A stretch of DNA of 64,000 nucleotides from Desulfosarcina widdelii. GTDB taxonomy: Bacteria > Desulfobacterota > Desulfobacteria > Desulfobacterales > Desulfosarcinaceae. The notes below the pieces were generated by a model. The model saw nothing but the letters and a program-made list of their open reading frames with translations. It was not told where the DNA came from and did not search any database. The translations under genes and the position numbers were made by a program. Below, piece by piece: positions 16,237 to 26,691 of the stretch (positions are counted from its first letter, which is position 1; each line of letters opens with the position of its first letter). The stretch lies in NCBI RefSeq assembly GCF_009688965.1, contig NZ_AP021875.1, forward strand, positions 4,526,001-4,590,000, given 5' to 3'.

Positions 16237-17634
16237 CTATTTGGAAGAGCGGATCTCCCGTTTCAGGTCGATTCCGTATTTTCGCATTCGGTTCCACACG
16301 GTCACCCGGTTGACGCCCAGCAGGCGCGCCGCCTGACTCTGGTTGCCGCCCGTCGCCTGAAGGGCGTTGATTAGCTCTTGCCGCTGGCTGTTTCCGGTGT
16401 CGGCAAGCCTGGGAGTGGCTACCGCAGCGACAGGCGACGGTTGGGCCAGCATTTGGGGCGGCAGGTGATCGATGTCGATGGCTTCCCGGTCAACAACGGT
16501 GAATGCATACTCAAGGGCGCTTTTCATTTCCCGGACGTTTCCCGGCCACGGGTAATTCATGAAGCAGTTCAGGGCTTCACGGGTCAACCCCCGAATGTTC
16601 TTGCCCGTGCGCAAAGCCAGCCGGCTGATGAACGTATTGACCAGAAGAGGGATGTCGTCTTTGCGCTGTCGTACCGGCGGCAGGTGAATGGGAATGACAT
16701 TGATTCTGAAGTACAGGTCTTCCCGAAAGCGTTTCTGGTCGATGAGTTCCAACAGGTTGCGGTTGGTAGCCGTGATGATGCGGACATCGGTCTCGATGGG
16801 TCGGTTTTCGCCGACCCGTTCGAACTGGCGGGTTTCCAGCACCCGCAGCAGCTTGATCTGGATGGAGAGCGGGATGTCTCCGATTTCGTCCAGAAAAAGG
16901 TCGCCCCCGTCGGCCGCTTCGAAACGACCGGCCCGGTCCCGGAACGCCCCGGTAAACGATCCTTTGACGTGGCCGAAAAGTTCGCTTTCCAGCAGGGCTT
17001 CGTTCAGGGCGGCACAATTGAGCTGCATATAAGGTCCGTCTTTGCGCTTTCCATGTTCGTGGATGGCCTTGGCCACCAGCTCCTTGCCGGTACCGCTTTC
17101 CCCGAAAATGATGATGGGCGCGTCGCTCAAAGCGGCTTTTTCGATGATGGCAAAGACGGCTTTCATCGGGTCGCTGCCGCCGACAATGCCGCCGAAACCG
17201 CTGTTTTCGTCCAGTTGGCGGGAAAGGACCTCCACCTTGCGGTCCAGGCGGTCGATTTCGCTCAAATCCGTAAGCGTCTCCACAGCCCCCATCACCGTTC
17301 CTTCCTCGTCTCGCAGCACCGAAGCATTTTTCAAGGCCGGAAAGAATGTGCCGTCTTTTTTCTTGATGGTGCATCGGCAGCGGCGCATCTCTGGCTGGCC
17401 GGGTTCGAACAGCTTGCACCAGCCATCGCCCAGGTTGTTGATTGCCATTTCGCAGGCTTCGCACGCCAGCAGGGTGCACGGCCGGCCGGCCACTTCTTTG
17501 GCCGCATAGCCGGTCATTTCTTCGAAAGAGCGGTTTACGGAGAGAATGCGGCCCTGTTGGCTGATGATGAGCATTCCCTCGCTCATGGTGTTGATCACCC
17601 GCTCCCAGTGTCGATTGATTGCCGCGAAGGGCAT
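16237..17634 (-). CDS. PAS-domain sigma54 activator, five-Cys PAS
   Basis: A 465-residue regulator: PAS domain (about 8-115), AAA+ domain with GESGTGKE and GSFTGA (a variant of GAFTGA), and a C-terminal Fis-type helix-turn-helix ([19 protein letters not shown]). The PAS has Cys53, 58, 61, 73 and 86, a C-x4-C-x2-C-x11-C-x12-C pattern shared exactly with the regulators at 34640 and 53285, plus Cys88. No receiver domain, so it senses directly. It is divergent from the TusA-like/multihaem cytochrome operon, whose upstream region has two identical palindromes and a sigma54-like promoter. Confidence 0.9.
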
Positions 17635-18122: not shown

Positions 18123-18176
18123 ACGCACGTCACGGTCGTGTGCGTTTGCCATATTCAACCCGCGCAAGGAGGGCCT

Positions 18177-19100
18177 ATGGGGCTGAACAGACGTGATTTT
18201 TTCAAATATGTGACCGTTGCCGGTGCGGCGGTGGCCGGGGCCGAAGGCTCGGCCCATGCATGGCAATCCAGGGCTCCGTCCGATTCCGTCGGCTGTCTGG
18301 TGGACCTGACCCGCTGCATCGGCTGCCGCAAATGCGAACAGGCCTGCAACCGGGTTAACGGTCTACCCGAGCCGGACCGTTCTTTCGAGGATTACACGGT
18401 TCTCGATAGAGAGCGGCGGCCCGACGAAAAGGCCTACACGGTGGTCAACCGCCACACCACAGGGCAGATCGACGAGCGTGACCAGCTCATTCCGACTTTC
18501 GTGAAGCTGCAATGCATGCACTGCCAGGACCCGGCCTGTGCCTCGGCCTGCATCGTGGGCGCCCTGTCCAAAAAGGAAAACGGAACGGTCCACTACGACG
18601 TCAGCAAATGCATCGGCTGCCGCTACTGCATGGTGGCCTGCCCCTTCGAGATCCCGGCCTATGAGTACCACGATCCCATCACGCCGCGGGTGATGAAATG
18701 CACTTTCTGCTACGAACGGGTACAAAACGAGAACAAGCTGCCCGGATGCGCGGAGATCTGTCCGGTGGAGGCCATCACCTTCGGCCGGCGCAGCGATCTT
18801 TTAAAGGTGGCCCATGATCGCATCAAGAGAAATCCGGGCCGCTATATTGACCACGTCTACGGTGAAAAAGAGGTTGGCGGCACCAGTTGGATGTATCTGT
18901 CCGCCGTGCCCTTCGAGAAGCTTGGTTTCGTCACCCTGCCGGAAGAACCCATGCCCCGGCTGGCGGAAACCATCCAGCACAGCCTTTTCGCCTACATGTG
19001 GTCGCCCATCGTGCTTTTCGGCATGCTCGGCGGGGTCATGTGGGCCTCCAAGGACAAGAGCGACCGGGCTGGAAACGGCAAGGAAGGAGGTTCTTCATGA
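18177..19100 (+). CDS. Tat-exported ferredoxin subunit, HybA/HmcB type
   Basis: A 307-residue iron-sulfur protein. NRRDFFK at 4-10 is a twin-arginine export signal followed by a hydrophobic stretch. Four ferredoxin-type cysteine groups follow: [37 protein letters not shown] and CTFCYERV...CAEICP. A C-terminal hydrophobic segment (ending MLGGVMWAS) anchors it in the membrane from the periplasmic side, as in HybA. It should pass electrons between the NrfD-type quinone protein and the periplasmic cytochrome. ATGA overlap with the next gene. Confidence 0.87.
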
Positions 19101-20302
19101 CGCATCAGGCAGCACCGGTAAATGCGAAATTCTGGACGCCCGGGGTCGTCGTGCTGGCGGTGCTCATGGCCGCCGGCGCGGCAGCGATCCTGGCCCGCTT
19201 CATCGGGGGCATCGGCTATGTCTCCAACCTTACCACCGCGCGCCCATGGGGGCTGTGGATCGGTGTGGATGTGGCCTCGGGCGTGGCCCTGGCCGCCGGC
19301 GGATTCACCACCGCTTTCCTGGCCCATATCATCGGCCGTCATTATTACGAACCCGTTGTCCGTCCGGCCCTGCTGACGGCCATGCTAGGGTATACGTTTG
19401 TCGTTTTGGGCCTGTTGGTGGACATCGGCCGATCCTGGGCGATCTGGAAGCCCATGATTCACTGGAATCCAACCTCCGTTCTGTTCGAAGTGGCCATGTG
19501 CGTCATGTTCTACCTCAACGTGCTTTATCTTGAATTTTTGCCCATTGTGGTGGAACGCTTCAAGGGCCGGGTGAAGCTGCCCGGACCGCTGGCCGGCCTT
19601 AACACCCCGGTCGAAGCGATCCTTCGCCTCCTGGACGCCGTTTTGCCCAAGATCATGTGGATCTTTATCATTGCCGGAGTGGTGCTCTCTTGCATGCACC
19701 AGTCCAGCCTGGGCTCCTTGATGCTCATCGCCCCCACCAAGCTGCATCCCCTTTGGTACACGCCCATTTTGCCGCTGCTTTTTCTTACATCGGCCATCGC
19801 GGTGGGCTATCCCATGGTGGTGTTCGAGGCTACCCTGGCCACGACATCGCTGAAACTCGATTCCGAGATGAAGGTGCTCGGACCGCTGACCCGCATCACC
19901 ATTTTCCTTTTGGGGCTCTACCTGGCGCTGAAAGTGGGCGACATGGTGGTTCGCGGCACCTATATTTACCTGTTTGACTTCACGGCCCAGACCAACGCGT
20001 TTCTCGTCGAAATGAGCTTTGGAGTGATCGTACCCTGGCTGATGTTGCTTTCCCCGGCGGTGCGCCGTTCGCGTCGCTGGCTTTTCACCGCCTGCACCAT
20101 GATTGTTGGCGGCGTGCTGGTCAATCGCCTGAATGTGTTCGTGGTCGGCTATCGCCCGCCCATCAGCGAAGCCAACTATTCCCCGGCCATCGGCGAAATC
20201 CTGGTTACCGTGGGGCTCATCGCAGCCCTGATGTTTCTTTATCGATTCCTTGTGACCTATCTTCCCGTGCTCAACAAACCGGAACAGGAGGTGTCTGCAT
20301 GA
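19097..20302 (+). CDS. NrfD/HybB-type quinone-interacting membrane protein
   Basis: A 401-residue polytopic protein with about ten membrane segments, of the NrfD/PsrC/HybB family that exchanges electrons with menaquinone. The ARPWGLWIG segment near residue 52 is typical of the family. It begins after a strong AGGAAGGAGG ribosome site, overlaps the ferredoxin gene by 4 nt and ends in an ATGA overlap with the cytochrome gene, so the three proteins are very likely made as one complex. Confidence 0.88.
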
Positions 20303-22377
20303 CCAGAACAGGACCGGTGATTTTTAGCTTCATTATCGTTGCCCTGGCTGGCCTCTGCTGGTGCGGTCCGGCCCTGGCGGCTGCGGATACGGCAGCCGCG
20401 CCGCCACCGGCGGAGACGGTGGTCTGGACCGCTCCGGATCAGGAAGCGGCCAAAAAGCGGGCGGCCGAGGTGGTTCCCTTCGTGGAGGCGGTCATGGACG
20501 AGTGTCGCCTGTGCCGCCAGCAGCGGCTGCGCGACATGGGGCTGAGCGTCAAGGATCAGACGGAAAGCTATTATCTGCTGGACAGCCCCATCATCCGCAG
20601 GACCGAAGACCATTACGGGCCGGTGCGCTTCATGCATGCCAAGCACGCCACGGTCACCAAGGACTGCGCCCTGTGCCATCATTATCGTCCCGTGGACGAG
20701 AGCGCATCGGAAACCACACGGTGTTCGGCCTGTCACCAGGAGCCGTTTCAAAAAGATCATCCCGAGCGGTTGGGGCTCAAGGCCGCTTATCATCAACAGT
20801 GCATGGGCTGTCATCGGGAGATGGACAAGGGCCCCATCGACTGTGCCGGCTGCCACCGCAAGAACATCCCCGACCATAAGGACAAGATCCAACTGGCCGC
20901 TAATCCGGAACCCTCCCAGGTGACCAGCGAGTGTCTGCGCTGCCATCAGCAGGCCGGCGAGGACATGCTCAAATCGGCCCACTGGTTGTGGAAGGGACCG
21001 TCCCCCTATACCCTCAACCATCGAAAGTCGGTCGAACTCGGTAAAGCCACGGTGGCCACCAACAACTTCTGAGTGAGCATCATCAGCAACGAGGCTCGTT
21101 GCACAAGTTGTCACGCTGGATACGGTTGGAAAGACGATAGTTTCGATTTTACCGATATGACCAAGATCGACTGCCTGGTGTGTCACGACACCACCGGGAC
21201 CTACAAAAAAACCCCCACGGCGGCCGGTATGCCCGATCCCAAGGTGGATCTGGTGGCCGTTGCCAAAAGCGTCGGCGCCACCTCGCGCAAGACCTGCGGG
21301 GACTGTCATTTCAACGGCGGCGGCGGTGAGGCTGTGAAGCACGCGGACCTGTCCCGTCAGCTCCTGCACCCAGAACGCAACTGCGATGTCCACATGGGCG
21401 GCTACGATTTTCAATGCTCCGAATGCCACCGTACCCGCAACCACAAGATTGCCGGGCGCAGTTCGTCGGTGCCCGTGGCCGAAGGCGATATTTCCTGCCA
21501 GAACTGCCATTCGGCGACCCCGCACTATGGCGACCACCTGTTGGATCACCATCTTAACAAGCACAGCAGCAACATCGCCTGTACCACCTGCCATGCGCCG
21601 GTTTACGCAAAATGCAAACCCACCAAGACGTTCTGGGACTGGTCCAAGGCCGGCGATAAAAAGCGCAAGCCGGAAAAAGACAAATACGGCATGGACGATT
21701 ATTTCTGGAAGAAGGGCGAATTCATCTGGAAGGAATCGGCCAAACCGGTGTACCGTTGGTATGGCGGTTTTACCAAGCGACTGCTGCTGGGCGACCAGTT
21801 GGACCTGACCCGGTCTGAATTCAATATCACCGAACCGGTGGGTTCCATCAACGACCCCAATTCCAAGATCGCGCCGTTTAAAATCATGGCAGGGGTTCAG
21901 GCCGTGGATGCCGAGTACAAGCATTTTCTGGTGCCTCACCTGTACCCACGCGACAAGGAAGACAAAACCGCCTACTGGAAGCACCGCGACTGGCAAATGG
22001 CCTTTACCGACGGTATGAAAGCCGCGGGTATGAAATACAGCGGCAAGTACGAGTGGGTCCGCACCAACATGTACTGGGGCGTCGAACATGAAGTCATGCC
22101 GGCCGACATGGCCCTTTCCTGCGTCCAGTGCCACGAAAGCCTTAAAGGCGAGCGAACCTGCAACCGCTGCCATCAGGACAGCCGCGATGTGGATTTCAAG
22201 AAGGTTGCCCACAAGGGTACGGACTTCTCCTATATGGCGTCCAAGGGCCGCGATGTGAGCCATCTGGTGGGTACTACGGATTACATCGACTTCAAGGCCC
22301 TGGGGTACAAGGGAGATCCCATCATCTACGGCGGTCGCTTTAAAAAGCTGCCCATGGGATATAAAGCCGAAAAGTAA
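20299..22377 (+). CDS. 13-haem cytochrome c, tetrathionate-reductase family, selenoprotein (Sec258)
   Basis: A 692-residue exported cytochrome when TGA at 21070-21072 is read as selenocysteine. A signal peptide ends near ALAA (about 28). Five CXXCH haem sites precede the TGA and eight follow, 13 in all; a CRLCR near 74 lacks the His. Around the TGA the sequence is NNF-U-VSI, then RCTSCHAGYGW and DCLVCHDTTGTYKK, matching the NNFC block of octahaem tetrathionate reductase (OTR), where this Cys lies by the active-site haem (recalled from the OTR structure). A SECIS-like hairpin follows. Likely a periplasmic quinol-fed reductase of a sulfur or nitrogen compound; the substrate is unknown. Thirteen motifs exceed the eight of OTR. 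Confidence 0.85.
21086..21102 (+). promoter_or_regulatory. SECIS-like hairpin for cytochrome UGA
   Basis: GCAACGA-GGC-TCGTTGC is a perfect 7-bp stem with a GGC loop, beginning 14 nt after the TGA; the loop GG is 21 nt downstream. Same architecture as the other three hairpins in this window. Confidence 0.75.
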
Positions 22378-22421
22378 TTCGACCCAGCGATTCACAAGGT
22401 TACATATGCAGCTTCCATGGG

Positions 22422-22672: not shown

Positions 22673-23392
22673 ATGGCAGAAGAAGCCGAAGTCGGGTGTG
22701 CCCGACCAACTGGAGGGCCGGTGGGAGAGCCGGTCGAAGAAAAGGCGGAGGAAAAAAGCAAACCTGTTGTAAAGGAGGAGTCAATGATTCACGTCGGAGA
22801 AAAAGTGCCGGATTTCGTGGCCCCGGGATATCAGCAAGGCAAGTTCATCAACGTCAAACTGTCCGACTATCTTGGAAAGTGGGTGCTGCTCTGTTTTTAT
22901 CCGGGTGATTTCACCTTTGTATGAGCTACCGAAATTTCTGCGGTCGCAGAAAAATATCAGGAGTTCAAGAAACTGGGCGTCGAACTGCTTTCTATGAGCA
23001 TCGACAGCATGTTTGTCCACAAAATGTGGGATGATCACGAGTTGTCCAAAATGGTTGACGGTGGGGTGCCGTTTCCCATGCTCTCCGATGCCGGCGGAAA
23101 AATCGGGCGTCTGTACGGTATTTTCAACGAAGGTGCCGGCGTGGAAAACCGCGGCCGGTTCATTATCGATCCGGATGGCGTGTGCCAGGGCTACGAGGTG
23201 CTGACGCCACCGGTAGGCCGTAATGTCATGGAGTCCCTGCGGCAGGTGCAGGCGTTCCAGCTGGTTCGCGAAACCATGGGTGGAGAGGCCACGCCTTCCG
23301 GATGGCGTCCGGGCAAAAAGACGCTGAAACCCGGACCGGACCTGGTGGGAAATGTCTGGAAGGAATGGAAAACGGAGATGGCGTTCGACTGA
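22673..23392 (+). CDS. Peroxiredoxin, selenoprotein (Sec at peroxidatic site)
   Basis: A 239-residue AhpC/Prx1-type peroxiredoxin when TGA at 22922-22924 is read as selenocysteine. The active site reads [12 protein letters not shown] where the family has FTFVCPTE, so Sec84 replaces the peroxidatic Cys. The rest is normal ([25 protein letters not shown]). A SECIS-like hairpin follows. Two in-frame starts have good ribosome sites: 22673 (AAAGGAGAG) and 22784 (AAAGGAGGAG); the longer form adds 37 Glu/Pro-rich residues. It should reduce peroxides in the cytoplasm. The neighbour downstream is a sulfide/persulfide-type enzyme. Confidence 0.9.
22935..22952 (+). promoter_or_regulatory. SECIS-like hairpin for peroxiredoxin UGA
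   Basis: TTTCTGC-GGTC-GCAGAAA is a perfect 7-bp stem with a GGTC loop; the loop GG is 18 nt after the TGA. Confidence 0.75.
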
Positions 23393-25371: not shown

Positions 25372-26691
25372 ATGAATGAGAAGCTCATTCAATTGGGCGG
25401 CAAGAAAAAAAGCACCTTTATGGACAAGGTCAAGGAGATTCTGCCGGAGGGTGGCAATCTGAATCTCTGCCTGACCTGCGGTGCGTGTTCCTCCGGCTGT
25501 CCGGCAACCGGTCTCGAAGGCATGGACCCCCGCAAATTCCTGCGTATGGCGGCCCTGGGCATGGATGAAGAGATCGCCAAGTCGGACTGGCCCTGGATGT
25601 GCACCATGTGCCAGCGCTGCATCTATGTCTGCCCCATGAAAATCGACATTCCCCAATTGGTTTACAATGCCAGGGGGTTGCGTCCCCGGGAAGAACGCCC
25701 CAAGGGCATTCTGGGTTCCTGCGACATGGCCCTGCGCAACGCCAGCACCAGCGCCATGGGAACCTCGCCCGACGACTTCGTTTTCGTGGTGGAGGATGTG
25801 CTGGAAGAGTATCAGGAAGCCCAGCCCGAATTCGCCGATATGAAGGCCCCCATCGACAAGCAAGGCGCCGAATTCTTTCTCAACCAGAATTCCCGCGAAC
25901 CGGTGACCGAACCGGACGAGCTGGTCCCGCTCTGGAAGATCCTGCACCTTGCCGGTGTGGATTGGACTTATGGAAGCGAGGGATGGGCCGGTGAGAACTA
26001 CTGCATGTTCCTGGCGGACAACGACTCCTGGGAACAGGTTACCCGAACGACCGTCAACCAGGCCAATAAATTGGGGGTTAAAACGTTTCTCAACACCGAG
26101 TGAGGGCACGTGACCTTCTCAGTCCGGGCCGGACTGAAAAAATTCAACCTCGAGCACAACTTTGAAGTTAAAAGCATTTACGAATATTACGCCAAGTGGA
26201 TCCGTGAAGGTAAACTCAAGGTCAACTCCGACTGGAACAAGGACCTGAAAATCAAATTCACGGTCCAGGATCCTTGCCAGATCGTCCGCAAGAGCTTCGG
26301 TGATCCGGTTGCCGAAGACCTTCGCTTCGTGGTCAAATCGGTGGTCGGCGAGGAAAATTTCATCGACATGCAGCCTAACCGCTCCAACAATTTCTGCTGC
26401 GGGGGCGGCGGGGGCTTTCTGCAATCCGGTTTCAAGGAGCAGCGTCTCAAATACGGCCAAATGAAAGATGGCCAGATTCAGGCGACCAAGGCGGATTACT
26501 GCATCGCCGCCTGCCACAACTGCCACGCGCAGATTCACGAACTGAGCGAGCATTACGGCGGGCATTACGGAGTTGTCCACCTGTGGACCCTGATCTGCCT
26601 TTCCCTCGGCGTTCTGGGGCCCAATGAGCGCGAGTACCTGAACGATGACCTCAAAGAGGTCAACGTGTTCCATCCGGAAACCGCCATGTAA
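25372..26691 (+). CDS. HdrC-HdrB (HdrD-type) fusion, selenoprotein (Sec244)
   Basis: A 439-residue protein when TGA at 26101-26103 is read as selenocysteine. The N-terminal HdrC part has two ferredoxin motifs, CLTCGACSSGCP (33-44) and CTMCQRCIYVCP. The HdrB part has two CCG-type domains. In the first, NTE-U-GH replaces the ECGH block of HdrD/DsrK-like proteins, so Sec sits at a cluster-ligand position. The second is normal (DPCQIV, NFCCGGGGG, CIAACHNCH). CCG domains hold the non-cubane [4Fe-4S] clusters that reduce disulfides in HdrB. No HdrA gene is adjacent; the HdrA fusion at 7736, which lacks nearby HdrBC genes, is a possible partner. AGGAGGTGGAGTCA precedes the ATG. Confidence 0.87.
26119..26137 (+). 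promoter_or_regulatory. SECIS-like hairpin for HdrCB UGA
   Basis: TCAGTCCGGGCCGGACTGA folds as an 8-bp stem with a GGC loop, starting 16 nt after the TGA; the loop GG is 24 nt downstream. Confidence 0.75.

Follow-up and report, generated by a model that had tools for sequence, protein, structure and literature searches.

Octahaem tetrathionate reductases (OTRs) carry, within the motif NNFC, a cysteine that adjoins the lysine-ligated haem of the active site. Haem II has been named the catalytic haem of OTR and the enzyme is described as reducing nitrite, hydroxylamine and tetrathionate (PMC4484225), the lysine ligand of its active-site haem coming from outside the haem-binding motif (PMC12285233). 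A multihaem cytochrome combined with an Fe-S subunit and an NrfD-type membrane subunit is the common theme of MccACD, NrfABCD, NhcABCD and Hmc; MccACD and NrfABCD are described as quinol-linked complexes running from quinol to substrate, and NhcABCD of sulfate reducers as a c3:quinone oxidoreductase (PMC8076601). Selenocysteine (Sec) has been placed in a multihaem c-type cytochrome before, in the older prediction for ExtKL of Geobacter (GSU2937-2936; NF040886; PMC1914089, PMC5877670), and a table in a review of May 2026 names the OTR family itself, TIGR04315, as a selenoprotein ("GenBank annotated", WP_331457571.1, motif not available; PMC13188914). A sequence-only reading of the DNA analysed here, which took Sec in a multihaem cytochrome to be undescribed, is thus corrected by both precedents. 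Unlike the protein reported below, ExtKL has five haems, and its Sec lies in a C-terminal region for which no relatives are known (PMC1914089); the review's entry is a single table row without a motif, which we liken to our protein by family name. No further account of Sec in an OTR was found in the literature searched, a collection with few subscription papers and no preprints.

The window, that is the whole stretch of 64,000 nucleotides from Desulfosarcina widdelii (NZ_AP021875.1, positions 4,526,001 to 4,590,000), contains on its plus strand a single continuous frame of 692 residues (20299-22377) that passes through one TGA at 21070-21072. As the sequence-only reading had it, 5 of the 13 CXXCH motifs precede this codon and 8 follow it; the residue in question, U258, sits in NNF-U-VSI with RCTSCHAGYGW directly after. 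A signal-like leader is followed by a c3-like tetrahaem part (residues 105-188; 20611-20862, plus strand; Pfam Cytochrom_CIII), which resembles the end of HmcA (HmcA positions 465-540), and then by the OTR part (residues 193-613; 20875-22137, plus strand), delimited by alignment to the Shewanella oneidensis OTR structure 1sp3. A CXXCR sequence near the N terminus (CRLCR, residues 69-73; 20503-20517), which the usual rule for haem motifs excludes, has counterparts in homologues L029, L150 and L151; L065 has no such sequence. A 712-aa ORF on the antisense strand (20257-22395) was left aside as probably reflecting the codon use of the conserved plus-strand gene.

The assignment to the tetrathionate-reductase type, likewise proposed from the sequence alone, is upheld by profile and alignment. 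The protein scores 497.3 bits against TIGR04315 (curated cut-off 375) and matches 1sp3 with an E-value of 2.6e-121; eight of its CXXCH motifs align with those of OTR, and the likeness extends over the whole OTR part. The partner of U258 in 1sp3 is Cys64, the cysteine of NNFC, ten residues ahead of the first cysteine of the haem-2 motif CTSCH (21100-21114, plus strand), and Lys347 (21337-21339, plus strand) falls, in the alignment, on residue 153, being invariant in 58 of 58 rows and present in 168 of 169 rows of a larger set. We take Lys153 of 1sp3 to be the axial ligand of haem 2, and Cys64 to lie in the active-site pocket. An AlphaFold2 model built on 58 sequences, in which haem is absent, superimposes on 1sp3 with Z 39.7 and, for 418 residues within its range 190-681, an rmsd of 1.8; the c3-like part is poorly modelled, with pLDDT mostly under 50. 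By sequence and model, then, the protein is a member of the OTR family with the predicted OTR fold, and Sec258 very probably occupies the active-site position. It departs from the Shewanella enzyme in having Sec258 for Cys64, in its added c3-like tetrahaem part and in a further CXXCH, the thirteenth, towards the end of the chain. The same genome encodes a second OTR, with eight haems and cysteine at the column (L002, G000:C1:6101994-6103241).

Homologues were collected by a family search (30 genomes), a scan of genome contigs (80 of 145 relatives), a search of the order (389 genomes) and from 60 fetched stretches. The column of residue 258 is covered by 196 entries, 172 of which are distinct; the 24 that were dropped duplicate others across about 390 nt. 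Among the carriers of TGA is Desulfosarcina alkanivorans (L053), whose gene stretch recurs in G012, a genome assigned to the same genus as the host. Where the sequence-only reading had aligned Sec with the OTR NNFC cysteine, the distinct homologues have TGA in 73 cases and a cysteine codon in 98 (54 TGC, 44 TGT), with a single CTC; since what the order search listed were its best matches, 73 of 172 describes the sample and not the order-wide fraction of Sec forms. The homologue with CTC, hence leucine (L175), is alone in lacking both Sec and Cys here; it otherwise has 13 haem motifs. The same reading had named three observations that would speak against it, namely a conserved stop at this place, independent start signals for the second half, and absence of selA, selB and selD, and none of them was made. 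TAA or TAG occurs at the column in none of the 172 homologues. Thirty-two other cysteine columns, with 3,878 codons in all, contain no TGA (3,536 Cys, 342 other, no stop), and in the rest of the alignment one stop was found in 84,873 codons (L216). Six comparisons gave dN/dS values of 0.06-0.14 before the TGA and 0.03-0.08 after it, such low values indicating purifying selection, so that both sides evolve as protein. On the census and the selection on both sides, sequencing error and pseudogene were rejected.

The GTG immediately after the TGA (21073) could suggest that the first protein terminates at the UGA and a second restarts there. Against such a restart, codon 259 is something other than ATG, GTG or TTG in 38 of the 73 TGA genes (ATC, ATT, ATA or GTC instead), a Shine-Dalgarno-like AGGA, GGAG or GAGG lies within the 18 nt before it in 0 of 73, the second half begins with no signal-like stretch, and the Cys homologues are one chain, all of which leaves this reading with a vanishingly small probability. 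Some bacteria have tRNAs that read UGA as cysteine or tryptophan, and decoding of this kind would also give a full-length protein. It is very improbable here, if slightly less so than a restart: the tRNA-Sec search of the genome returned nine matches at eight loci, among them a single UCA tRNA, of Sec type, the other cysteine columns are free of TGA, and a SECIS footprint is present. The genome search recovered selA (614 bits), selB (366), selD (384) and tRNA-Sec (75), all over their cut-offs. From the ensemble of these data we infer that UGA 21070 is almost certainly read as Sec. The selD match of the genome (L132, G000:C1:4839442-4840368) itself contains a single TGA in frame, which fits a SelD that has Sec of its own. 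Across genomes, a tRNA-Sec of at least 70 bits was found in 41 of 52 with a Sec-OTR and in 35 of 40 of the same order with a Cys-OTR, and its presence was rejected as a separator of the two; 11 Sec-OTR assemblies have no match at 70 bits, and the misses in the two groups include some assemblies rated nearly complete.

The hairpin with a GGC loop that had been noticed downstream of the TGA has the properties of a bacterial SECIS element. It reads GCAACGA-GGC-TCGTTGC (21086-21102, plus strand), with seven base pairs, a spacing of 20 nt after the TGA and an energy of -7.5 kcal/mol when folded alone. The printed bSECIS rules (PMC13188914) ask for a loop of 3-9 nt, a stem of 4-16 bp, a G in the first two loop positions, a spacing of 16-37 nt and an energy of at most -7.5 kcal/mol; the window hairpin lies within every one of these, its energy just at the limit. 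All rules including energy hold for 69 of the 73 TGA genes (the energy is missed by L182, L188, L192 and L200) versus 3 of the 99 others (L034, L039 and L077). Without the energy rule they are loose, because 68 of the 99 genes lacking TGA then have a stem of at least 4. Single-sequence folding of a 56-nt stretch was no better than that of shuffled sequences (z -0.30), and Rfam gave no SECIS match on the window or on the TGA stretch.

Two designs of the element can be recognized. Class I, in 54 of the 73 TGA genes, has the hairpin of the window at the same place, with its seven pairs, GGC loop and 20-nt spacing, one letter differing in L182; 53 of the 54 conform to all the rules. Class II comprises the other 19, of which 16 conform, with TGC at codon 266 and a loop of AGGU, AGUU or GGGU that starts 24 nt after the UGA. 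Selection on the RNA is visible in the six codons 263-268, whose synonymous entropy is zero in 43 thirteen-haem class I genes; none of 268 other conserved degenerate columns in the same genes is at zero (mean 1.23 bits), and in 20 thirteen-haem genes without TGA the three of the six columns conserved enough to score average 1.29 bits. Here and throughout, "thirteen-haem" is applied to proteins with at least three CXXCH ahead of the column; a few of them, L177, L178, L180 and L109 included, have 12 in total. All 19 class II Sec-OTRs (for example L185, L033 and L110) have both Cys266 and Cys309, and neither residue is found in the other rows of the 169-row set; the pair could possibly form a disulfide or a relay near Sec.

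Codon 266 (GCT, Ala; 21094-21096, plus strand) lies in the SECIS loop. The 73 Sec forms have either alanine (54) or cysteine (19) at this residue, and proline prevails among homologues without TGA (51 of 99; 50 of the 98 Cys forms). Column 266 is the one most coupled to the Sec/Cys state, overall and also within the thirteen-haem and eight-haem groups. The coupling scores and a quick tree (LG+G4, SH-aLRT only, columns 258-268 left out) were computed on 169 of the 172 rows, three being too short or cut; the leucine row L175 was treated as Cys for the tree and omitted from the coupling. At least 11 Sec/Cys changes are required on this tree, 8 of them forced by supported branches; L110 and L113 lie far from the other class II rows and their placement is unsure. 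In pairs drawn on separate supported branches, Sec goes with loss of Pro266 at a median p of 0.031 (range 0.008-0.125) and with a stem of 6 or more at a median p of 0.016 (0.008-0.22), a pair in the opposite direction appearing in 2 of 200 pairings. The tree itself gives no direction; Cys rows that are nested among or paired with Sec rows and have Pro266 (L157, L163, L166-L168, L214, L218 and L219) are read as Sec losses. L034, a Cys form with TGT, retains the entire class I hairpin together with Ala266, and therefore likely represents a recent change from Sec to Cys. The RNA signal thus appears, as far as aligned sequences can tell, to cost the protein a residue, Pro266 giving way to Ala or Cys.

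This exchange bears on the role of the selenium. Sec might be real and yet non-catalytic, tuning haem 2, guarding against over-oxidation or persisting as a structural remnant, with cysteine its equivalent, and the at least 8 exchanges on supported branches within the same operon type speak for such a role. On the other hand, the column holds Sec or Cys in 171 of 172 homologues and is near in sequence to the haem named catalytic, and the retention of Sec accompanies the loss of Pro266; we regard a non-catalytic Sec as rather unlikely.

The cytochrome gene is the last of an operon that also encodes a ferredoxin-type Fe-S subunit (18177-19100, plus strand) and an NrfD-type membrane subunit (19097-20302, plus strand; Pfam NrfD), both starts being read from the sequence; the NrfD gene overlaps each of its neighbours by ATGA. 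The Fe-S subunit is HmcB/HybA-like and begins with an RRDFF leader, presumably a Tat-like motif. Scored with NCBIfam models on longer frames, it passes HybA (273.8 bits, cut-off 263) and misses HmcB (360.6, cut-off 420; frame 18138-19100), and the HmcC/HybB-like membrane subunit stays below both the HybB type (PRK10881; 334.9 bits, cut-off 450) and HmcC (273, cut-off 550; frame 18887-20302), so that neither Hmc equivalog cut-off is reached. Divergent from the operon is a PAS/sigma-54 activator (16237-17634, minus strand; Pfam Sigma54_activat, PAS), a relative of which is found at the equivalent place in many thirteen-haem loci with long flanks. Every one of the 30 thirteen-haem loci whose upstream flank reaches 1,200 nt has an NrfD gene there (19 Sec, 11 not), and all 16 whose flank reaches 2,200 nt have both the Fe-S and NrfD genes (11 Sec, 5 not); among 38 eight-haem loci flanked by 2,500 nt in both directions, one has either gene (L093, Cys). 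In four loci, all Cys, NrfD and a cytochrome with 12 CXXCH are fused in one frame (L177, 447-3824, minus strand, checked with Pfam; L178, L180 and L109). As non-Sec forms occupy the same operon, Sec is not essential to the system.

Further putative selenoprotein genes are found downstream. A Sec peroxiredoxin (22673-23392, plus strand; TGA 22922-22924), whose part after the TGA scores 245.8 bits against NF040737 PrxU (cut-off 270), is followed by a metallo-beta-lactamase/rhodanese gene; relatives of the former were seen in 5 loci and of the latter in 8, and many loci end too early to show whether they have them. An HmcF/TmcB-like Fe-S protein with a CCG domain (25372-26691, plus strand), which has an in-frame TGA at 26101-26103 (NTE-U-GH), is probably another selenoprotein.

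The composition of the operon resembles that of MccACD, NrfABCD, NhcABCD and Hmc, from all of which it differs in the cytochrome, and it sets the protein apart from the Shewanella OTR, which is described instead as interacting with STC, fed by CymA (PMC4484225). That the complex is a quinol-linked reductase is, by analogy, the moderately favoured interpretation, because OTR reduces its substrates at haem II and MccACD and NrfABCD draw on quinol. The complex could also run in reverse and deliver electrons into the quinone pool, in the manner of Nhc or hydrogenase-2: NhcABCD is such an oxidoreductase by description, the c3-like part could dock periplasmic c3, and the Fe-S subunit passes the model for HybA of hydrogenase-2. 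Set against the reductive activities recorded for OTR (PMC4484225) and the direction of MccACD and NrfABCD (PMC8076601), this reversal seems to us distinctly the less probable course.

For the reductase, the following sequence of events can be proposed. The ribosome, SelB and tRNA-Sec would insert Sec at UGA 21070, directed by the hairpin 14-30 nt downstream, and the polypeptide would be exported and fitted with its 13 haems. Sec258 would stand in for the cysteine preceding the lysine-ligated OTR haem. Electrons would pass from menaquinol via NrfD, the Fe-S subunit and the c3-like tetrahaem part to the OTR haems, and at the Sec/haem site a small oxo-compound of sulfur, nitrogen or selenium would finally be reduced. 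At haem 2, Sec258 may act either as a nucleophile or as a proton/electron relay; candidate substrates are tetrathionate, hydroxylamine, selenite and S-S bonds of the polysulfide-like kind. The catalytic role, the direction of electron flow and the type of substrate are what we infer from these comparisons. Taken as a whole, the best explanation, in which we place considerable confidence, is a genuine selenoprotein of the OTR type, with Sec inserted by SelB and tRNA-Sec, that most likely belongs to a quinol-linked reductase. The fullest version, with Sec258 as a catalytic selenol beside the lysine-ligated haem, fed from quinone in many Desulfobacterales, and with a SECIS element that forced the loss of a conserved proline regained upon loss of Sec, has about an even chance of being correct.

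Within the literature searched, as far as the sources go, the position of Sec, the two SECIS designs, the behaviour of residue 266, the repeated Sec/Cys exchange and the thirteen-haem, quinone-linked form of OTR are apparently undescribed. Annotation programs that end a reading frame at TGA would break the protein in two or shorten it, and quinol-linked OTRs of sulfate reducers are therefore probably under-counted. The alternation of Sec and Cys at a single site in a respiratory haem enzyme makes the advantage of selenium testable by a single-residue swap, and the thirteen-haem cytochrome does the same for the passage of Sec through export and haem attachment. The hairpin within the coding sequence, with its two designs and the replacement of Pro266 by Ala or Cys, suggests that Sec insertion may carry a measurable price in protein.
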